From positions 434,001-498,000 of the forward strand of contig BQJK01000001.1 of assembly GCA_021604665.1 (NCBI GenBank): DNA of 64,000 nucleotides. The letters run 5' to 3'. The notes below the pieces were generated by a model. That model had not been told where the DNA came from. It did not search any database and was given only the letters and a program-made list of their open reading frames with translations. This stretch comes from Rhodomicrobium sp. GTDB lineage: Bacteria; Pseudomonadota; Alphaproteobacteria; Rhizobiales; HXMU1428-3. Shown one piece after another: positions 44,323-62,518 of the stretch. The number at the start of each line of letters is the position of its first letter. Within the stretch, counting starts at the first letter, position 1. The translations under genes were made by a program, and so were the position numbers.

Positions 44323-44398
44323 GGGCGATTAGCTCAGTTGGGAGAGCATCTCGTTTACACCGAGAGGGTCGGCAGTTCGAGCCTGTCATCGCCCACCA
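44323..44398 (+). tRNA. tRNA-Val (anticodon TAC)
   Basis: A 76-nt tRNA with GGGCGAT acceptor arm pairing with the 3' ATCGCCC, anticodon arm TCTCG-TTTACAC-CGAGA giving TAC, T-loop TTCGAGC, and encoded CCA. The adjacent convergent integrase points to it as the prophage attachment gene. Confidence 0.97.
44365..44398. other. probable attachment site attL in the 3' half of tRNA-Val
   Basis: The integrase gene ends 100 bp from the tRNA 3' end. Tyrosine integrases of this type usually recombine in the anticodon-to-3' region and keep the tRNA intact. The matching attR copy should lie beyond the right edge of the window, so the exact core cannot be fixed here. Confidence 0.5.
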
Positions 44399-44497: not shown

Positions 44498-45556
44498 TTA
44501 ATCACTTAGATTTTGATCGATAAATTGCGCCGCGTTCTCGAAATATTCCGGCGTCGTCTTTGCATAGACTGATTTCGTGATCTCAATATTAGAGTGACCA
44601 AGCCACTCGCTGATAACCTCTATTGGCACATCTTTTCTCATAAGAGTGCCTGTGGTATGTCTTACTGTGTGAGGACTTACCCCTTCGATGCCAGCTTTCT
44701 CGCATGTTCGCTTGAATGCCTTCTTGATAGATTTAACCGGCTTACCGTTCCACTCGATCACATATTTTGTGAGAGCTCCAGTCTTTGCGTCTAAAAGGGC
44801 CGCTTTGGCATAGCGGGTGAGTTTTTGAATGGCTCTTCTTTTTCTTCTGGTCTTGGACATGGGGTCATAGAGATATTCGCCTCTAAGGTCGATCACGTCA
44901 CTTTCAAAATCTATCTGGTCCCACTTCATCTCAAGGATGGCGCCAGACCTTGCGCCTGTTGTAAAGGCCATAATAAAAAACAGTTTAATGTGAGGTGTTG
45001 TAGCGTGTTGTATGAACGCCTTGATTTCTTCGCTGGTCATAACGCGCTCTCGCGGCTTTGATTTGTTGGGCAACCAGACGTAGCGCGCATCATCAGCTTT
45101 AAGTCTGCGGGTTTTAATTGACCAGTTAATGAGCGTTCTTAATTGTAATAGTTCTGTCCAGACAGTTGAGGGGGCTAGGCCTAATGCAAATCTCTCTCTT
45201 GCATAATCGCGGCAACTGTCTTCAGTGATATTTTGTGGCAGCATCTCATTAAACCTTGGCGATAGTGCCTTCCAGGAATTCAGAAAGTTTTTGGGGTTCT
45301 TGCCGTCTTTGACTTTTTCAACCAGATATTGTTCAAACAGATAGCCGATCGTTTTCTCATCAACCGGCTGTATTAGTTCGGCTTTTGACGCGAATTTATC
45401 AAGTGCAGTTCTTGCAGCGCTTTCGTTTGTTTGACCGAGGGTGACCTGTTTGCGTTTTCCGCCCTCATCGTACCAGAAAGCGACCGCGCAGCCCCTATGC
45501 CTACCAAGGCGGAATTTTCCAACGTGGTGTCGTCTCCAGCGCTTTCTCTTTCCCAT
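44498..45556 (-). CDS. int: prophage tyrosine integrase
   Basis: A 352-residue tyrosine recombinase that integrates the phage at tRNA-Val. An N-terminal Arg-rich arm-binding part (MGKRKRWRRHHVGKFRLG) is followed by a core-binding domain (about 75-165) and the catalytic domain with Arg in TTGARSGAILEMKW, H-x-x-R in SPHTVRHTTG, LGHSN and the tyrosine in SVYAKT. It is the last gene of the leftward operon, and its first 184 bp overlap the excisionase gene in another frame. Confidence 0.95.
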   Translation of the reverse strand: MGKRKRWRRHHVGKFRLGRHRGCAVAFWYDEGGKRKQVTLGQTNESAARTALDKFASKAELIQPVDEKTIGYLFEQYLVEKVKDGKNPKNFLNSWKALSPRFNEMLPQNITEDSCRDYARERFALGLAPSTVWTELLQLRTLINWSIKTRRLKADDARYVWLPNKSKPRERVMTSEEIKAFIQHATTPHIKLFFIMAFTTGARSGAILEMKWDQIDFESDVIDLRGEYLYDPMSKTRRKRRAIQKLTRYAKAALLDAKTGALTKYVIEWNGKPVKSIKKAFKRTCEKAGIEGVSPHTVRHTTGTLMRKDVPIEVISEWLGHSNIEITKSVYAKTTPEYFENAAQFIDQNLSD

Positions 45557-48524: not shown

Positions 48525-49329
48525 TTGCGGCCTCATCTTGCAATAGGACTTCCTTAAGCTCATCAAGGCGGCCATCAATCTTCTCAACAATGGCCTTTCT
48601 TGTTTCCTCCGGAACAATCTTTGAGTTAAGCATTGGCAGATTGTCTGTCTTTATCTGCTTAAGCTGCTCATAGGAGGTTGTGTTTTTAATTTGCATGAAT
48701 ATTTCACGGCGCCAGGCTTTAACTTCTTCTTCTGTTTTTTGAGCTCTATCGGCTGGCGTGGCAGGCTTATGCTCTACATTGTCTGCTTCAATATCGTCGC
48801 TTGTGTTTAGCAAAAGGGTTTTAGCAAGCATGTATTTGATGGCGTAAGAATAGGCTTTGCCTGGCCCTTTATCCTGATCATCATTGGCATAGCCATAGAC
48901 AATGTTTTCCAGCTTTTCGTCAGGGCAATCTGCATTGACAAATACACCCTTGACCTTCAATGCGGTTCTATTTCCATCTTGCTTAAGATCATCGACAGAC
49001 GGAAAAAATAGGACCCCATTCTGTGTCAATATGCGACGCGCTTCGCTGGCTATGTCATCATGAGTGACATACTTGTAAGAAAACTCGACCCCTGACTTCT
49101 TGCTGTTTATTTTTGCCTCAGAATCTTTGTTGATTTTACGGGCTTGGCTTTGAGCCAGCACCATGCGCTGATAGATGTTTAAATCTTTATCCCATGTCAG
49201 ACGTGACAATAGGTCGGGGCTTGTGCCTTCATCCCCTTCACAAGCGGAAGCGCTTTCCTCAGCGTCTGATGTTCCATCAACGTTATTGGCCTCTGGGCTA
49301 ACCACGTCCATGCTTCTAGTGCGTCCCAT
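48514..49329 (-). CDS. ERF-family single-strand annealing protein
   Basis: A 271-residue phage recombinase that anneals complementary single strands. The ERF core (about 50-175) shows YVTHDDIASEARRILTQNGVLFFPSV and GYANDDQDKGPGKAYSYAIKYML followed by LNTSDD. The first 45 residues are an acidic Ser-rich extension encoded within DNA shared with the upstream gene. The C-terminal part is a charged helix. GGAGAG precedes the ATG. Confidence 0.9.
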   Translation of the reverse strand: MGRTRSMDVVSPEANNVDGTSDAEESASACEGDEGTSPDLLSRLTWDKDLNIYQRMVLAQSQARKINKDSEAKINSKKSGVEFSYKYVTHDDIASEARRILTQNGVLFFPSVDDLKQDGNRTALKVKGVFVNADCPDEKLENIVYGYANDDQDKGPGKAYSYAIKYMLAKTLLLNTSDDIEADNVEHKPATPADRAQKTEEEVKAWRREIFMQIKNTTSYEQLKQIKTDNLPMLNSKIVPEETRKAIVEKIDGRLDELKEVLLQDEAANGS

Positions 49330-51049: not shown

Positions 51050-51334
51050 CTATGATTCCGCCACGTCTGAAAACTCAGCAAAGGAGCGGGCCATAGAAGT
51101 GCTAAGTGACTCCAGTCGACCCAAGTAAAGAAAGTCAAGTGTTGTTCCATAAACGCGATTAACTTGTAGAGCGCCATCTAGTGACATTCGTTGCCTGCCG
51201 CGCTCCCAATTGTTGTAATTGGTCACGGATATGCCAAGGCTGTCTGAGAACTCGCTCTGAGACAGTCCGGAGTGAGAGCGAAGCCACTTAAGGCGCTTTG
51301 CTATATTTTCTTTTGACCAAGGTTCGTTTTCCAT
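51050..51334 (-). CDS. compact prophage repressor, XRE-family HTH
   Basis: A 94-residue protein with one Cro/CI-type HTH (about 10-62: IAKRLKWLRSHSGLSQSEFSDSLGISVTNYNNWERGR). It is transcribed away from the Cro-like gene, the usual place of the lysogeny repressor, and the 17-bp operator lies in the divergent region. It lacks the LexA/CI-type peptidase domain, so induction probably works by another route, such as an antirepressor. Confidence 0.82.
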   Translation of the reverse strand: MENEPWSKENIAKRLKWLRSHSGLSQSEFSDSLGISVTNYNNWERGRQRMSLDGALQVNRVYGTTLDFLYLGRLESLSTSMARSFAEFSDVAES

Positions 51335-51386: not shown

Positions 51387-51416
51387 TTGACATATTCCAT
51401 ATTTTATGGAAATAAT
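51387..51416 (+). promoter_or_regulatory. rightward early promoter (pR-like) with operator
   Basis: TTGACA (51387-51392), 18-bp spacer, AATAAT (51411-51416). The operator TTCCATATTTTATGGAA at 51395-51411 (exact consensus on the minus strand) sits between the two elements. The predicted start falls at or next to the Cro-like ATG (51422), so that mRNA is likely leaderless. Confidence 0.7.
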
Positions 51417-51694: not shown

Positions 51695-52204
51695 ATGCCT
51701 GAATGGACAGACAAAGAGCACGAAACGCTAAAAGACCTGCTTAAAAAGGGGTTCTCAGCTGGTGTCATTGCCGAACAGATGCCCGGCAAAACAAGAAACG
51801 CTGTGATCAGCCGCATTTATCGCACAAATCTTAAATTAAATTCCGGATATGGAACGGGCAGAAAAAGCCGCCGCGTCAAGCGCGTTTTAACGCCAAAGCA
51901 GCATAGCAGTAACAAGCCAATTTCAAAACGCATGACTGATATGGAAGACTTGCCCCTACCTAACCTGAAAATAGACCGGACGCCGGAAGAGCTGAAAGCT
52001 GTATTCGAGGCCAATGGCCGCGAAACCGTACCTCTTGAAGATCTCAGCCAGCATCAATGCAAATGGCCGCTTGAAGTGGATGGCAAACATGTTGGCTTTT
52101 GCGGGGCCCCGCGTGGCGCAGGTGCTTACTGCGAATTCCACAGAGAAATTGCAATGCCAACAGCATTAAAGCGCCGCAAGCCCGCGAAAAGAGAGGCGGC
52201 ATGA
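51695..52204 (+). CDS. phage-encoded GcrA-family cell-cycle regulator
   Basis: A 169-residue homologue of GcrA, the alphaproteobacterial sigma-70 cofactor that senses CcrM methylation at GANTC sites. The N-terminal DNA-binding part has EWTDKEHETLKDLLKKGFSA and MPGKTRNAVISRIYRTNLKL (host form: GVTRNAVIGKVHRLGL). The C-terminal sigma-interacting part keeps the cysteine pattern CKWPLEVDGKHVGFCGAP and GAYCEFHREIAM. The linker is Lys/Arg-rich. It is placed early, just after Cro, so it could redirect host transcription or cell cycle. Confidence 0.88.
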   Translation: MPEWTDKEHETLKDLLKKGFSAGVIAEQMPGKTRNAVISRIYRTNLKLNSGYGTGRKSRRVKRVLTPKQHSSNKPISKRMTDMEDLPLPNLKIDRTPEELKAVFEANGRETVPLEDLSQHQCKWPLEVDGKHVGFCGAPRGAGAYCEFHREIAMPTALKRRKPAKREAA

Positions 52205-56138: not shown

Positions 56139-56405
56139 ATGAGCAATGAAACGCTATGGGAGAATGAGGAGTGGTCTATTCGGCCAACCGGAATTGAACA
56201 TCCGGGCAAGATAAGATTTTTCTTCTTCAGGCCGTTTATCGAAGAGGGGCCTGCTAAGGCGTTTGAAGTCGCCATCAATAGAATGGGTGGTGACCCAGAC
56301 CTCCTCTACGACGCCTTCCTCCAGCTTGCCACCTACTGGGATCTGCAATGCAACTATGACGAACTGAGAAAAATCAGAGATGAGATGAAGGAGAAAGCAT
56401 CATGA
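56139..56405 (+). CDS. phage protein, function unknown
   Basis: An 88-residue acidic protein starting MSNETLWENEEWSIRPTGIE. GAGGAGGG precedes ATG 56139. Part of the rightward early operon. No family recognised. Confidence 0.7.
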   Translation: MSNETLWENEEWSIRPTGIEHPGKIRFFFFRPFIEEGPAKAFEVAINRMGGDPDLLYDAFLQLATYWDLQCNYDELRKIRDEMKEKAS

Positions 56406-58129: not shown

Positions 58130-58276
58130 ATGAAAAAATATACATTTGATTATGCAGTCGATGGTAAATGGAGCACAATTGAAGTTACCGCGTGTAGTCG
58201 TGCAGACGCCGAGAAATTACTGAAGCCCATTAATGAAACTACTAAAATCAGTTATCGCGGTCAGCTGTCATATTGA
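58130..58276 (+). CDS. 48-residue phage protein, function unknown
   Basis: Starts MKKYTFDYAVDGKWSTIEVT and contains a helix ACSRADAEKLLK, a typical small beta-alpha module. CGGAG lies 9 bp before the ATG. Its end overlaps the convergent 169-residue gene by 9 bp. Confidence 0.6.
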   Translation: MKKYTFDYAVDGKWSTIEVTACSRADAEKLLKPINETTKISYRGQLSY

Positions 58277-58777
58277 TGATGGCCAATCGTCAGGTCTATA
58301 GCCTGCCAGATACGCTCGCAACAATTTGAGAACGGCAGGCCCCGCGTTGCGGCTGCCGTTTTCTATTTCTGCAATGCGCGACTGTGCGGAGTAACCTAAT
58401 GCGGCTGCCAATTGTTTCTGCGTTAAACCTAGTGCGTTGCGCGCCAACAGAAAATCGTTCCTGTCAGGGTTGTCTGGCAGGACAAACTCAGCGGGGTGCC
58501 AACCGGCAGCCGCAACCGTTTTATCTGACGTCGCCGTCATATCGAGCGGGGCGTCAGGGTGAATGCGTTGTTCATCCAAATCAAACCGGCTGAAATAAAG
58601 AGACTTGCGGTCGCGGGATAAAACAGCGGCAACGGGCTGTCCGATTAAGTCATCGCGCCTCAAGAACCGCCTATAGGCGGCCTCAGCCTCAACCGGGTTG
58701 CTGGTGGGCTCTACACGCTCAATAATGCGGCCCTGTTCATTTTCTGCGTGAGAGCGCAGGTAGATTTTGTAGATCAT
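58268..58777 (-). CDS. HTH protein ending the left counter-defence-like operon (Aca-like candidate)
   Basis: A 169-residue protein with a C-terminal XRE-type HTH (about 108-150: FLLARNALGLTQKQLAAALGYSAQSRIAEIENGSR) and an N-terminal mixed domain (AAYRRFLRRDDLIGQPVAAVLS and YFSRFD). Its DNA looks richer in G+C than the genes upstream. As the last gene of a small-gene operon whose promoter holds a perfect palindrome, it is the natural candidate autorepressor. Binding is not shown. Confidence 0.8.
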   Translation of the reverse strand: MIYKIYLRSHAENEQGRIIERVEPTSNPVEAEAAYRRFLRRDDLIGQPVAAVLSRDRKSLYFSRFDLDEQRIHPDAPLDMTATSDKTVAAAGWHPAEFVLPDNPDRNDFLLARNALGLTQKQLAAALGYSAQSRIAEIENGSRNAGPAVLKLLRAYLAGYRPDDWPSSI

Positions 58778-58893
58778 GAATTTTTGCCGCCGGTCCTGAT
58801 GAATGTTGCTAATTCTTTGAACTCGAGGCCATACTGAATGGACAGGGCCTCGATAATCGCTTCAATTTTTACGCGTTTGCCGCCTACGCTCAT
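58774..58893 (-). CDS. 39-residue phage protein, function unknown
   Basis: MSVGGKRVKIEAIIEALSIQ and onward to RTGGKNS. Its ATG overlaps the stop of the upstream frame and its stop overlaps the ATG of the HTH gene, both as ATGA, so it is coupled on both sides. It looks like a short basic helical protein. Confidence 0.6.
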   Translation of the reverse strand: MSVGGKRVKIEAIIEALSIQYGLEFKELATFIRTGGKNS

Positions 58894-58997
58894 AACCATA
58901 GTGGCTGGCGGCGACCGCCATATTTAACCATACCAATTTGCGATAACACTGTTAGTGAGCCGTATTTGCAGCCAGACAGGTCTTTAATAGGGGCCAT
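58890..58997 (-). CDS. 35-residue protein resembling the N-terminal domain of HNH/AP2 homing-type nucleases
   Basis: MAPIKDLSGCKYGSLTVLSQ, then GGRRQPLWL. DL(S/T)GxxFGxLTVL is the N-terminal DNA-binding block of phage HNH and AP2-type endonucleases (usually followed by LCRCDCG). The frame stops where the cysteine knuckle would start. It is either a remnant of a nuclease gene or a small DNA-binding protein kept by the operon. Confidence 0.5.
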   Translation of the reverse strand: MAPIKDLSGCKYGSLTVLSQIGMVKYGGRRQPLWL

Positions 58998-59009
58998 TTT
59001 CGACTCACT

Positions 59010-59348
59010 TCAACCGCTATTTTTATCAATTTTATTCGATCTGAGTAGCGCGCCGCGCTTGGCGTCACATAGGCGGATTAACCGATCCGCTCTGGCCATG
59101 CAGCGCCGTGCTGAAAACGACCACGATGTGTAAACGTCATCATCCATCGTGGATTTACGCTCATCTAACTGAATTTCGACGAGCGATTTCACATAACCCA
59201 GTTGGGCACGTACAATGTCCGCCATTTCAATAGACGTTATTTCGTCGTATTCTATTTCGAGGGTATTGTACTGATTGCCGTCAATAAATATTTGATTGTT
59301 TAGATCGTCAAACTCTACAAAATCGATTAATTTGCTCTGTGTTAACAT
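59010..59348 (-). CDS. phage protein, function unknown
   Basis: A 112-residue acidic protein (MLTQSKLIDFVEFDDLNNQI) with a helical second half ending in a basic segment. Second gene of the left operon, after a terminator-like hairpin. No family recognised. Confidence 0.7.
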   Translation of the reverse strand: MLTQSKLIDFVEFDDLNNQIFIDGNQYNTLEIEYDEITSIEMADIVRAQLGYVKSLVEIQLDERKSTMDDDVYTSWSFSARRCMARADRLIRLCDAKRGALLRSNKIDKNSG

Positions 59349-59376
59349 TGATATCTCCGCAGTTTTGGCAGGAAAA

Positions 59377-59406
59377 AGAAAACCTGGCCATTGGCGCAGG
59401 TTTTCT
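59377..59406 (-). terminator. attenuator-like hairpin between the first and second genes of the left operon
   Basis: A perfect 10-bp stem (arms 59377-59386 and 59397-59406, AGAAAACCTG) followed on the minus strand by further T residues. It could stop most transcripts after the first gene, so that the downstream genes get less. Confidence 0.6.
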
Positions 59407-59418
59407 GATGACTGATGA

Positions 59419-59601
59419 TTAGAATTTTACGGAGTTGTATAGTTCTGCTTCAGATATTCCCTCAAACCAGGCGTTGTTTGCGCGATCATTAATGTTTGAT
59501 TCGTCAACATCGGGGTTTTCTGACTGTGTGCGGCTAACAACCGCGTTGATCATGTCCAGCTCTGACTGAGTGAAACCCTCTGTGTTATCTAATGTCCACA
59601 T
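59419..59601 (-). CDS. small acidic protein, first gene of the left operon (anti-CRISPR-like candidate)
   Basis: A 60-residue protein (MWTLDNTEGFTQSELDMINA then a long acidic helix to NSVKF) with many Asp/Glu and Asn. GGAG lies 9 bp before ATG 59601; the frame is open upstream to 59652. Size, acidity, strong promoter and position before an HTH gene match anti-CRISPR loci, but I see no sequence match to a known Acr. It could serve another counter-defence or exclusion role. Confidence 0.7.
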   Translation of the reverse strand: MWTLDNTEGFTQSELDMINAVVSRTQSENPDVDESNINDRANNAWFEGISEAELYNSVKF

Positions 59602-59975
59602 TTTATTTTCTCCATCTATGGCCGGGAACACCCCCGGCAGGCTTTTGATCAACTGATCATGTAATTAATATAATACGCATTGCGTATAATGTCAACGCCT
59701 AAATGTAAAATATTTCAAATTAATTTTTATAGAGCCGGTGGGGTTTATTATATCCATAAGTCAGAGTAGTTTTAAGCTAAGTTAATGAAAAAACTTGAGT
59801 TACCATACCAGCATCGAAAATCCGATATTTGTGGTAACTCAAGGTGTACGGGTAAATCGCACGACTCAGATTAATAGTGGGCGAAAACCACTATTCACCG
59901 TTTCATTTAACGAATTCAACATGTTTCTCCCTCCCCAAAGGGCAACTAGGCGGCAACCACATCAGCCGCCGTTTT
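59602..59975. other. spacer between the two leftward operons
   Basis: About 374 bp. Leftward, it carries the promoter of the left operon. Rightward, it holds a putative RNA unit ending in an intrinsic terminator (next entry). The 66-codon rightward frame at 59795 has no ribosome binding site and follows the RNA hairpins, so I do not call it. Confidence 0.5.
59667..59695 (-). promoter_or_regulatory. strong leftward promoter with a palindromic operator (left operon)
   Basis: Minus strand: TTGACA (59695-59690), exactly 17 bp, TATATT (59672-59667). Within the spacer lies the perfect dyad ATACGCA-T-TGCGTAT (59673-59687). Start expected near 59660, giving a leader of about 60 nt. Confidence 0.8.
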
Positions 59976-59977
59976 TT
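59760..59977 (+). ncRNA. candidate small RNA between the two leftward operons
   Basis: Rightward, three foldings in a row: a perfect 12-bp stem CTTGAGTTACCA (59794-59805) with 59832-59843, enclosing ATCG/CGAT; an 8-bp stem AATAGTGG (59873-59880) with 59888-59895; and an intrinsic terminator GGCGGC/GCCGCC followed by TTTTTT at 59949-59977. A+T-rich TTTATTATAT near 59742 could be the promoter, but it is weak. The 5' end is a guess. The terminator overlaps the end of the converging HTH gene. Confidence 0.45.
59949..59977 (+). terminator. intrinsic terminator of the candidate small RNA
   Basis: GGCGGC (59949-59954) pairs with GCCGCC (59965-59970), loop AACCACATCA, then G and six T residues. On the minus strand no T-run follows the stem, so it acts only rightward. 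Confidence 0.8.
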
Positions 59978-60416
59978 ATTCGGCTTCATCGATAAAATCG
60001 CAGGCGCTTTCCATTAGTTGGGTTATATTATCAGGCTTATGGTCCAGCCAGATAAACCCCGCTAGCGTATAGCCATCTGATCCATACTGAACACCAGCAT
60101 CAGCTGAGAGATTATAGTCTGATTCATTATCGGGTATGACAAGGCATTGAAATCTAGGGTGGTGAGTATGGATGAGGTATTCACGGCCATCTGATCCGTC
60201 ACCAATAACCCATTTGGCATGAATTAATTGTGGCGCACTTTCGCCCATTAGGTCTAGCAAATCCTTAGCGATGCCGTCATTGACTGGCCGGTCTCCGGCT
60301 ACAATGAGCCTGATATAGCGATCAGATACATTAAGTTGCCGGGCTATTTTAGCCTGCCAGCCTACGGAAGTGCCAGCAAGGGCAACTGAGTTTTGTATAA
60401 ATTCTTCGCGGGTCAT
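59976..60416 (-). CDS. HTH protein ending the right counter-defence-like operon (Aca-like candidate)
   Basis: A 146-residue protein. The N-terminal 60 residues (VGWQAKIARQLNVSDRYIRLIVAGDRPVND) form an HTH with an Arg-rich recognition helix. The C-terminal domain (about 62-146) is acidic with YLIHTHHPRF and GYTLAGFIW. Its start lies just after a hairpin whose right arm holds the only G-rich sequence near the ATG, so its translation may be controlled. Candidate autorepressor of the upstream promoter; not shown. Confidence 0.78.
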   Translation of the reverse strand: MTREEFIQNSVALAGTSVGWQAKIARQLNVSDRYIRLIVAGDRPVNDGIAKDLLDLMGESAPQLIHAKWVIGDGSDGREYLIHTHHPRFQCLVIPDNESDYNLSADAGVQYGSDGYTLAGFIWLDHKPDNITQLMESACDFIDEAE

Positions 60417-60423
60417 AAGAAAA

Positions 60424-60450
60424 CCCCATCAACTTATTGGGTTGATGGGG
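60424..60450 (-). terminator. attenuator-like hairpin between the two genes of the right operon
   Basis: CCCCATCAAC pairs perfectly with GTTGATGGGG (arms 60424-60433 and 60441-60450), followed on the minus strand by TTTTCTT, directly before the ATG of the HTH gene. It may stop transcription or hide the ribosome binding site. Confidence 0.65.
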
Positions 60451-60462
60451 TGATGTGGGTGT

Positions 60463-60693
60463 TTATTTCACGGCGTCAACATCATCAAGTGTGATTGTGA
60501 TGGTTTCTATGCGACCATTAACGGACTTAGTAGCTTCAAAGTCATAATATCCGTTATTATTTAAATCGTCATCAAAGTCGCCCTTCATCCAGATTACTTG
60601 TGCTGTACCATCAACGGACCAATCAAGACCGAGGTCATTAATGCGAGATTCAATGGTTCTAAGTCCGTTTTCATTGATTGTGTAAGTTGTCAT
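60463..60693 (-). CDS. small acidic protein, first gene of the right operon (anti-CRISPR-like candidate)
   Basis: A 76-residue acidic protein (MTTYTINENGLRTIESRIND...GDFDDDLNNNGYYDFEATK) of predicted beta-rich fold. It starts about 50 nt after the predicted transcript start. No resemblance to a known family that I recognise. Position, size, charge and expression signals match anti-CRISPR genes; other counter-defence or antirestriction roles are possible. Confidence 0.7.
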   Translation of the reverse strand: MTTYTINENGLRTIESRINDLGLDWSVDGTAQVIWMKGDFDDDLNNNGYYDFEATKSVNGRIETITITLDDVDAVK

Positions 60694-60748
60694 TTGCTTG
60701 GTTCCTTAAGTAAACCACAGCGGGCCTGATTGCCCTGCTGATAACTAT

Positions 60749-60777
60749 AATATAGTTCCTACCTAGGAACATGTCAA
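60749..60777 (-). promoter_or_regulatory. strong leftward promoter with a palindromic operator (right operon)
   Basis: Minus strand: TTGACA (60777-60772), exactly 17 bp, TATATT (60754-60749): the same hexamers and spacing as the left operon's promoter. The spacer holds a different perfect dyad, GTTCCTA-CC-TAGGAAC (60755-60770). Start near 60742. Confidence 0.8.
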
Positions 60778-60927
60778 CACCTAAATTCAAATAATTTCAA
60801 AAATATTCAGAGGTCAAAGCCGGGCGTTGTTTGCGCAATCCCTTGCCCCCCGCTTAGAGAGGCGCACCGCCCAGGCTTTGGCACAAATCAGAGAGAACAT
60901 ATATGAAAATTTATCAGAGATACCAAA

Positions 60928-61212
60928 ATGGCACGTGGAGGAGCTAGAGAGGGCGCTGGGCGCAAGAAAGGCTCAGGCAACAAGGCGACGGCTGCCATCA
61001 AGGAATACGCTCAGAAACACTCTGAGGACGCTATAAAGGCCATTGTTAATATTATGAATGATAATGACACGCCAGCGCAGACAAAACTTGCAGCGGCCAA
61101 CTCATTGCTTGATCGCGGCCATGGCAGACCAGCGCAAGCTGTCACGAACGAAGATGGCACTAAACTATTCCCAGATAAAATTGAGGTTGTTGTTGTCAAA
61201 GCTAAGGGTTGA
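60928..61212 (+). CDS. terminase small subunit-like protein
   Basis: A 94-residue basic protein beginning MARGGAREGAGRKKGSGN, the opening of many small terminase or terminase-associated DNA-binding proteins. A helical region (AIKEYAQKHSEDAIKAIVNI) follows. It lies directly before the large terminase, overlapping its start. Recognises the pac/cos site by inference. Confidence 0.78.
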   Translation: MARGGAREGAGRKKGSGNKATAAIKEYAQKHSEDAIKAIVNIMNDNDTPAQTKLAAANSLLDRGHGRPAQAVTNEDGTKLFPDKIEVVVVKAKG

Positions 61213-62518
61213 AGTCCCTGAGGCGCTACAGCCGCTTATAAAGCCAGCCCGTTACAAGGGTGCTTATGGAGGACGTGGGGGAGCTAAGTCTCATTTCTTT
61301 GCTGAGCAAATTGTACTCAAGAGCTTTGCTAATCCAACAAGAGTTGTTTGTATTCGTGAGGTTCAAAACTCGCTGAGAGAATCTGTAAGGCAACTTATTG
61401 CCGATAAGATTGAGAAATTTGGTCTTGGTGAATTCTTTCAGGTTTTGGATGCCGAGATTAGAGGCAAGAACGGTTCGCTGATTGTTTTCAAAGGTATGCA
61501 AGCCTATTCAGCTGAAAGCATTAAATCTCTTGAAGGGTTTGACGTTGCATGGGTTGAGGAAGCCCAAAGCCTATCTCATGTCTCACTCAGATTGCTACGT
61601 CCAACGATTAGAAAGCCAGGCTCAGAATTATGGTTCTCATGGAACCCAAGACATAAGCGCGATGCAGTAGACGAGCTTTTGAGAGGGCCTAAACCGCCAG
61701 AAGATAGTTGCGTTGTCCCTGTTGGCTGGAAAGATAACCCGTGGTTTCCTGATGTTTTGAAAGCTGAAATGAACCAGGACTATGCCCGTGACCCTGAAAT
61801 GGCCGACCATGTATGGGGTGGTAATTATGAGATTGTCACAGAGGGCGCCTATTACGCCAAACTTTTATTTGAAGCTGAGAAGTCTGGCCGCATCACTTCA
61901 GTCCCGTATGATCCTGGTGAGCCTGTTTATACGGCTTGGGATCTGGGCCTTGATGATAGCACTGCTGTATGGTTTGCGCAGATTTGCGGCTCTGAAGTCC
62001 GCATTATCGACTTTCTGGAAACAAGAAACAAAGCGCTTATTGAAATTGCTAAGCAAGTAAAAGAGCTGCCTTATGTCTATGCAGAGCATTATATGCCGCA
62101 TGATGTCGAGACCAGAGAAATCAGCACAGCAAAATCACGTAAAGAACATTGCGAGGGAGTAGGGCTGAGGCCAATTATTGCAGGCTCAAAAATCCCGGTT
62201 GTTGACGGAATCAACGCGGCCCGAACGCTTATTCCAAAATGCGTATTTGATGCCATCAAGTGTGAGCGCGGCATTGAGGCCTTGCAAGCCTACAGGACGG
62301 AAAAAAACGAAGAGAAGGACGTTTTTGGCGCGAAACCGCTGCACGACTGGTCAAGTCACGCAGCCGATGCATTCAGAGAATTAGCGGTTAACCTGTTTGA
62401 TGTGAAGAAAGCCAAGAGCCAGCGAACAGCCTCACTCGTTGAATATGATGTGATGACTTACCACGACGATTACAGATCGGGCACCACAGCAGGCGTGGAT
62501 GATTATAACCCATGGTAA
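61193..62518 (+). CDS. terminase large subunit
   Basis: About 441 residues, the DNA-packaging motor. The Walker A-type loop is GGRGGAKSHF, Walker B is DVAWVEEAQSL, WFSWNPRHKRDAVDE is the coupling region, and the RNase H-like nuclease begins YTAWDLGLDDSTAVWFAQ. It matches the PBSX/Terminase_3-type family. The frame opens at 61058, but the protein begins MSKLRVEVPEALQPLIKPARY from a TTG at 61193 behind GAGG; two further TTGs at 61187 and 61190 are alternatives. Confidence 0.92.
   Translation: MSKLRVEVPEALQPLIKPARYKGAYGGRGGAKSHFFAEQIVLKSFANPTRVVCIREVQNSLRESVRQLIADKIEKFGLGEFFQVLDAEIRGKNGSLIVFKGMQAYSAESIKSLEGFDVAWVEEAQSLSHVSLRLLRPTIRKPGSELWFSWNPRHKRDAVDELLRGPKPPEDSCVVPVGWKDNPWFPDVLKAEMNQDYARDPEMADHVWGGNYEIVTEGAYYAKLLFEAEKSGRITSVPYDPGEPVYTAWDLGLDDSTAVWFAQICGSEVRIIDFLETRNKALIEIAKQVKELPYVYAEHYMPHDVETREISTAKSRKEHCEGVGLRPIIAGSKIPVVDGINAARTLIPKCVFDAIKCERGIEALQAYRTEKNEEKDVFGAKPLHDWSSHAADAFRELAVNLFDVKKAKSQRTASLVEYDVMTYHDDYRSGTTAGVDDYNPW

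Follow-up and report, generated by a model that had tools for sequence, protein, structure and literature searches.

How does a bacterium that carries a Cas9 system survive with a prophage that its own CRISPR spacers match? The question is raised by a 64,000-nucleotide stretch of Rhodomicrobium sp. (assembly GCA_021604665.1, contig BQJK01000001.1, positions 434,001 to 498,000; hereafter the window), in which two leftward transcription units, unit 1 and unit 2, lie side by side inside an integrated prophage. A first-pass annotation, made from the letters alone, had given both units the architecture of operons that join anti-CRISPR (acr) genes to an anti-CRISPR-associated (aca) autorepressor gene with a helix–turn–helix (HTH) fold. 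Our analysis supports this architecture and strengthens it, through the prophage location, a recurring unit 1 operator, exchange of the small-gene cargo and a host Cas9 array that targets the prophage. We regard unit 1 as very probably an autorepressed cassette of the acr–aca type, hold the same view of unit 2 with lower confidence, and lean slightly toward the idea that at least one gene of the units encodes an inhibitor of the host Cas9 that lets the self-targeted lysogen live. The annotation went further in calling these ‘counter-defence genes of a new kind’, which exceeds the evidence: the gene families of both units appear new, the kind is already known, and inhibitors encoded here would be new families of that kind.

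Cas1 was detected in the host genome, and the CRISPR locus was then examined on the surrounding stretch (L119). This locus encodes a Cas9 of 1114 amino acids (aa; TIGR01865 across residues 4–1109, E value 3.2e-187), a type II Cas1 (E 1.2e-69) and a 116-aa open reading frame (ORF) that we read as Cas2 from its position and size. Judged by gene content (cas9, cas1 and cas2 only) and Cas9 size, with no subtype model run, the system is probably type II-C, and its gene content looks complete and intact. Upstream of cas9, an anti-repeat that pairs at 18 of 18 bases (G-U allowed) marks a candidate trans-activating CRISPR RNA (tracrRNA); an Rfam scan of L119 returned zero matches, tracrRNA included. 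The array (L119:7524–9416) holds 29 identical repeats and 28 spacers, 27 of them distinct, as spacers 9 and 18 are the same. Four of the 27 match the prophage with at most one mismatch and eight with at most seven, the ranked mismatch counts being 0, 0, 0, 1, 4, 4, 6 and 7 and then at least 9 (Table 1). As controls, 400 host 30-mers compared with the prophage gave one match at 7 mismatches and none lower, and 280 shuffled spacers compared with our gathered sequence stretches gave a minimum of 8. Searched genome-wide, spacers 28 and 23 each have two copies, one in the array and the other in the prophage. The genome thus bears the mark of self-targeting, a complete-looking CRISPR–Cas system with spacers matching the same genome, and a lysogen in such a Cas9 host would presumably depend on an inhibitor. 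Self-targeting spacers are described as a strong indicator of Acrs, with many Acr–Aca loci occurring without them too (PMC6739104, in excerpt). In the array, the prophage-matching spacers (13, 20, 22–26 and 28 of 28) lie toward the end nearer the cas genes. No PglZ gene turned up in the host, and one host N6_Mtase match was barely above its cut-off.

The two units have the same design, and every element that the annotation had described was found at its position. Sequence reading bears out identical promoter hexamers (TTGACA and TATATT) at 17-bp spacing in both units, perfect palindromes of 15 bp (unit 1) and 16 bp (unit 2) that fill the spacers and differ from each other, acidic first genes of 60 and 76 aa (computed isoelectric point 4.05 and charge near -9.5 for both products), a hairpin 3' of each first gene, and terminal HTH genes of 169 aa (Pfam HTH_3) and 146 aa (PHROG match and structure model). 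Unit 1 runs from its promoter through the 60-aa gene, the hairpin, the 112-aa gene and the 41-aa ORF to the 169-aa HTH gene, with gene gaps of 70 and 110 bp and then an overlap; unit 2 runs through the 76-aa gene, the hairpin and the 146-aa HTH gene to a terminator, with a gap of 46 bp. The exact pattern TTGACA-N17-TATATT occurs twice in the 2,912,937 bases of the genome, in these two units, and the reversed-pattern control occurs 0 times. Only 200 of 127,962 19-mers in the window (0.16%) contain arms of at least 7 with a loop of at most 3, so two palindromic spacers out of two are not the product of chance, an explanation we reject.

This design agrees with what is known of acr–aca operons. 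One published search takes genes shorter than 200 aa, on one strand, with gaps below 150 bp (PMC6739104, in excerpt); the genes of 60, 112, 41 and 169 aa in unit 1 and of 76 and 146 aa in unit 2 fall within these bounds, and in both units the HTH gene lies downstream of the small genes. The mobile element is the prophage itself, at window-relative 44,399–85,071, with its integrase, terminase and replication genes; the units are flanked by replication genes on one side and divergent terminase genes on the other. A 38-bp attachment-site duplication of tRNA-Val sets its length at about 40.7 kb, so that it extends past the window. Like the operons of Aca1–Aca10 (PMC9410906, in excerpt), the units comprise short one-strand genes on a mobile element with the HTH gene last, behind a strong sigma-70 promoter whose core contains an inverted repeat. 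In that study each bacterial acr–aca family analysed has such a core-promoter repeat and is repressed by its cognate Aca, and both units fit this rule in the placing of their repeats. There are also differences. Neither the cargo nor the HTH proteins were placed here in a named Acr or Aca family. The HTH proteins, at 146 and 169 aa, are longer than the named Aca proteins (60–79 aa, with Aca2 at 125 aa; PMC9410906 Table 1, in excerpt), and, unlike acr–aca operons, both units have a hairpin between cargo and regulator.

Table 1. Features of the two units, protospacers of the host array and prophage landmarks (positions relative to the window).
Feature	Position	Strand	Remark
Unit 1 promoter	59667..59695	-	TTGACA 59695-59690, 17-bp spacer, TATATT 59672-59667
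Unit 1 palindrome ATACGCA-A-TGCGTAT	59673..59687	.	in spacer; predicted operator of 169-aa protein
60-aa acidic first gene, unit 1	59419..59601	-	candidate inhibitor; family of 19 proteins including itself
Terminator-like hairpin after 60-aa gene	59377..59406	-	followed by T-run; read by eye
112-aa acidic gene, unit 1	59010..59348	-	no relative found
41-aa (or 39-aa) ORF, unit 1	58774..58899	-	stop overlaps start of 169-aa gene (ATGA)
169-aa HTH gene, unit 1	58268..58777	-	predicted autorepressor of unit 1
Unit 2 promoter	60749..60777	-	TTGACA 60777-60772, 17-bp spacer, TATATT 60754-60749
Unit 2 palindrome GTTCCTA-GG-TAGGAAC	60755..60770	.	in spacer; predicted operator
Second palindrome AACTATA-T-TATAGTT, unit 2	60743..60757	.	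covers -10; read from sequence
76-aa acidic first gene, unit 2	60463..60693	-	candidate inhibitor; no relative found
Terminator-like hairpin between 76-aa and HTH genes	60423..60451	-	3' arm contains Shine–Dalgarno-like GATGGGG
146-aa HTH-like gene, unit 2	59976..60416	-	predicted autorepressor of unit 2
Terminator after unit 2	59788..59843	-	12-bp stem CTTGAGTTACCA...TGGTAACTCAAG, then six T; by eye
Protospacer of spacer 28, 0 mismatches	44946..44975	-	inside integrase gene
Protospacer of spacer 26, 1 mismatch	68,134		
Protospacer of spacer 25, 0 mismatches	83,707		
Protospacer of spacer 23, 0 mismatches	83,838		
Weak protospacer of spacer 22, 4 mismatches	49270..49299	-	
Weak protospacer of spacer 20, 4 mismatches	52035..52065	-	
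Weak protospacer of spacer 13, 6 mismatches	60849..60878	-	just upstream of unit 2
Weak protospacer of spacer 24, 7 mismatches	56182..56212	-	
attL	44361..44398	+	tRNA-Val 3' end; same 38 bases again at 85034-85071
Prophage integrase	44498..45556	-	beside tRNA-Val; phrog_1, E 5.8e-56
Terminase-like genes	60928..62518	+	divergent from unit 2; small (94 aa) phrog_641 E 2.9e-4, large phrog_3717 E 5.2e-57

We propose that the near-consensus promoters would fire strongly, either during phage entry or in the lysogenic state. The first genes would then yield their small acidic proteins, which would block Cas9 and let the self-targeted lysogen live; perhaps the 112-aa protein and the N-terminal part of the 169-aa protein contribute to the block. 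Most transcripts would end at the hairpin that follows each first gene, which would reduce the amount of HTH protein made. Finally, the HTH protein would occupy the palindrome that lies between -35 and -10, exclude RNA polymerase and hold its unit at a low steady level.

The annotation had suggested that the HTH proteins may each repress the promoter of their own unit. For unit 1 this idea gains comparative support. Among 163 viral-contig stretches, 150 encode an HTH relative of the unit 1 regulator, and we analysed the best 80 of these 150 loci; the operator scripts used 78 of the 80 (L050 and L055 were left out, as the match starts at the locus edge), of which 57 are non-redundant. With at most two mismatches, ATACGCA-n-TGCGTAT has four matches in the 57 upstream regions (up to 600 bp each, 32.7 kb) and 0 in 343.9 kb of the same loci outside them, whereas 60 permuted half-sites gave no match 56 times and one match four times. 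Because the motif was first looked for in these same loci, the count of 4 in 57 is a control and not an independent sample. In all four loci (L027, L047, L052 and L062) a TTG-type -35 and a TAT-type -10 flank the site, and the promoter serves an operon in which the HTH gene comes last, behind one or two small genes. The first gene of L052 is homologous to the 60-aa gene; L027, L047 and L062 have different small first genes beside the same operator and HTH family. As in acr–aca loci, the operator recurs with HTH-domain relatives as the cargo changes, and one regulator with exchangeable cargo is the acr–aca pattern reported by AcaFinder (PMC9765179, in excerpt). With this operator footprint in its favour, the 169-aa protein is predicted to repress its own promoter through the unit 1 repeat.

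Related arrangements occur with other operators. Different spacer palindromes accompany small genes and a unit 1-type HTH gene at L071, L077, L089 and L100 and, as read by eye, in Paracoccus phage Pkon1, and at L041 and L042 a differing spacer palindrome lies 2.9 kb upstream of the HTH gene. In L041 (1145–4204) the spacer-palindrome promoter precedes a longer operon that ends in a unit 1-type HTH gene and includes a DnaJ-domain gene and, by eye, a methyltransferase-like gene.

The 169-aa protein itself appears composite. Its C-terminal part matches HTH_3 (Pfam E 3.8e-10), with helices at residues 106–157 in a structure model of mean predicted local distance difference test (pLDDT) score 87, and its N-terminal domain is modelled as strands 3–9 and 18–25, helix 28–39 and strands 49–55 and 58–64. 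A search returned 33 proteins, its own included, of which 18 were aligned (again including the window's, and with P0024 lacking its start); all 23 invariant columns lie at or before residue 104, and the HTH part is variable. The N-terminal domain occurs alone as a 108-aa protein on a 129-kb contig (L015:5989–6315), near a DUF4942/methyltransferase-like gene, and with another C-terminal part on a Brevundimonas plasmid (L022:7902–8447), near TraL, TraJ and a relaxase; plasmid-transfer and methyltransferase-type neighbourhoods are frequent sites of anti-defence genes. The HTH part occurs without the N-terminal domain in many phages, and 75 of 78 such proteins are 59–87 aa long when the nearest ATG is taken as the start. 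Because each part also occurs separately, we conclude that the 169-aa protein joins two modules. Against Aca10 (7xi5), the family profile reached only E 0.032, through the HTH part alone, and fold searches with the 169- and 146-aa models gave generic HTH matches, through the HTH part, and no Foldseek match that reached E 0.001. In genome contigs, the 169-aa profile gave 52 stretches with a pattern match and 0 confirmed, and a search of 60 further genomes from the same genus and order gave no relative of either HTH protein.

A protein of this build invites comparison with the Acr–Aca fusions AcrIIA1 and AcrIF24. In the 169-aa protein a domain of about 98 residues, common to the 18 aligned relatives, precedes the HTH; the HTH part varies among these relatives, and the N-terminal domain is a putative inhibitor at most. 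The joint reading that the 60-aa family are new type II-C Cas9 inhibitors and that the 169-aa protein is a fused inhibitor, with an N-terminal Cas9-blocking domain and an exchangeable autorepressor HTH, is one we regard as doubtful. If the fused-inhibitor part were true, regulator and weapon would be traded as domains as well as genes.

The L052 operon, from a Paracoccus homiensis prophage, has a first gene whose product is homologous to the 60-aa protein (E 1.6e-7, 37% identity), and a search with both proteins, which were then aligned with those returned, gives the family of 19 with the two queries included; several members are encoded by the first genes of phage operons. One relative, also of 60 aa, is 73% identical; its longest contig measures 1405 bases, the same length as that of a protein 74% identical to the 169-aa protein, and the two contigs may be one. 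A 60-aa relative is present at five viral loci, one of which (L113) is L052 again. L111 and L112 have in common their upstream region, in which the palindrome TGCCACG-G-CGTGGCA fills a spacer next to a TTGACC -35, divergent from a gene read as terminase; no spacer palindrome was seen by eye upstream in L110 and L114. The family also travels without the HTH gene, since none of that HTH family adjoins it in L111 and L114. No member was found among phage records with the L052 relative as query, or among plasmids with the P0049 relative; in 385 genomes of the class there is one besides the window's own, as the N-terminal part of a 170-aa protein. This protein (L109:1501–2013) lies near a gene that by eye resembles the first gene of L041. 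For the 76- and 112-aa proteins, no relative was found in phages or viral contigs, the best phage match of the 76-aa protein having E 0.2. The anti-CRISPRs AcrIIC1–5 would presumably act on the same Cas9 subtype as the host's; the 60-, 76- and 112-aa proteins have no sequence match to Acr chains among solved structures.

A small first gene followed by an HTH gene that represses the operon is also the plan of type II toxin–antitoxin modules, in which a small toxin would precede its antitoxin; HigA2 and MqsA share with the proteins here the HTH fold and the self-repressed operon order. We consider this origin highly unlikely. The first genes encode very acidic proteins with no toxin-family match in Pfam, PHROGs, PADLOC or NCBIfam, the first gene varies between phages that have the same operator and HTH family, and a hairpin that lowers antitoxin output would be odd for such a pair.

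Several observations, set out in this paragraph and the next two, weigh against taking the units for acr–aca cassettes that shield the prophage. The unit 1 operator was found upstream of only those 4 of 57 HTH relatives, and at up to three mismatches its palindrome occurs five times upstream and seven times elsewhere. By eye, the HTH family taken together shows no clear excess of spacer palindromes upstream: with arms of at least 6, they occur in 4 of 75 promoter-like sites within 1500 bp upstream and in 7 of 238 elsewhere; three of these seven (L041, L042 and L076) sit 2.0–2.9 kb upstream on the same strand. Some HTH relatives lie near replication genes, as in Rhizobium phage 16-3 and Ruegeria phage V16. 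Such neighbours would suit Cro/CI-like regulators of the phage life cycle, with the small genes as ordinary early genes, and a spacer palindrome, TTCCATATTTTATGGAA at 51387, is present in the prophage repressor region too. We find this alternative very improbable. The prophage already has a CI-like regulator (51050–51334), and there is no sign of a wider regulon, because each unit palindrome is single in the prophage at up to three mismatches; a prophage-wide regulon for these palindromes is rejected on the same count. The promoter-like site at 51387 (+) lies beside the CI-like gene and is possibly the operator of the prophage repressor.

Unit 2 is without comparative support: no relative of its 76-aa gene was found, and the only chromosomal relative of the 146-aa protein with genomic context, L107 in a Novosphingobium metagenome-assembled genome and the single locus that genome contigs yielded, differs in following a 230-aa gene that resembles ribbon–helix–helix proteins. 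We therefore class unit 2 with unit 1 by its design and adjacency. The N-terminal part of the 146-aa protein is HTH-like (phrog_3626, E 1e-5; model helices between residues 3 and 57), with a Pfam HTH_3 score of 14.3 bits, under the cut-off of 23, and the model is good for the HTH and poor for the C-terminal part (block pLDDT 45–62). The family, 13 aligned sequences including the window's, is well conserved, in the C-terminal part too. Its profile found no Aca chain among solved structures at E up to 1 and reached AcrIIC2 only at E 0.52–0.77 over about 20 positions. No member was found in viral contigs or phage records, and 397 genomes of the order hold four besides its own, as short partial matches only. 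The hairpin before the 146-aa gene overlaps the gene's only Shine–Dalgarno-like bases and is predicted to be able both to terminate transcripts and to mask the ribosome site. We also considered an RNA operator of the kind that we take Aca2 to use; the arms of the hairpin are unlike the promoter palindrome.

The remaining adverse points concern Cas9 inhibition. The 3' flank NNNNGC is present at the protospacers of spacers 23, 26 and 28 and absent at that of spacer 25, so a protospacer-adjacent motif (PAM) is only suggested; the Cas9 system is known here from its genes, a mixed assembly may be the source of the self-match, and another prophage gene could be the inhibitor. Searches of Pfam, PHROGs, PADLOC, NCBIfam and solved-structure sequences, general libraries with no dedicated Acr collection among them, gave no match to a known Acr for any gene of either unit. 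These points leave a real, though smaller, chance that the units are autorepressed moron operons with other cargo (antirestriction, superinfection exclusion or host takeover), the Cas9 or its array being silent or the anti-CRISPR lying elsewhere in the prophage. Of 2599 aca-like homologs, just 386 (15%) have a known, candidate or putative Acr nearby (PMC9410906, in excerpt), which also favours such operons, as does a PAM that is only suggested. Against them stand the four near-perfect protospacers in the prophage for an intact-looking Cas9 system, and both units are the clearest acr–aca-like loci in the part of the prophage inspected.

More broadly, a self-targeted lysogen with an intact-looking Cas9 makes the case for new Cas9 inhibitors direct and testable: the host's own Cas9, repeats and tracrRNA candidate supply the matching target. 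The HTH family with its readable operator is a new bait for guilt-by-association searches, and the varied small genes beside this pair are anti-defence candidates. The approach is not new, because self-targeting genomes have already been used to infer type II-C Acr–Aca loci (PMC6739104, in excerpt). A narrow literature search, on type II-C anti-CRISPRs in Alphaproteobacteria or Paracoccus and on self-targeting Rhizobiales, found no prior work, which is no proof of absence.

One minor feature of unit 1 completes the description. Between the 112- and 41-aa genes lies a 35-aa ORF (58890–58997, - strand; DLSGCKYGSLTVL...), possibly a remnant, whose sequence we take to resemble the start of phage AP2/HNH endonucleases.

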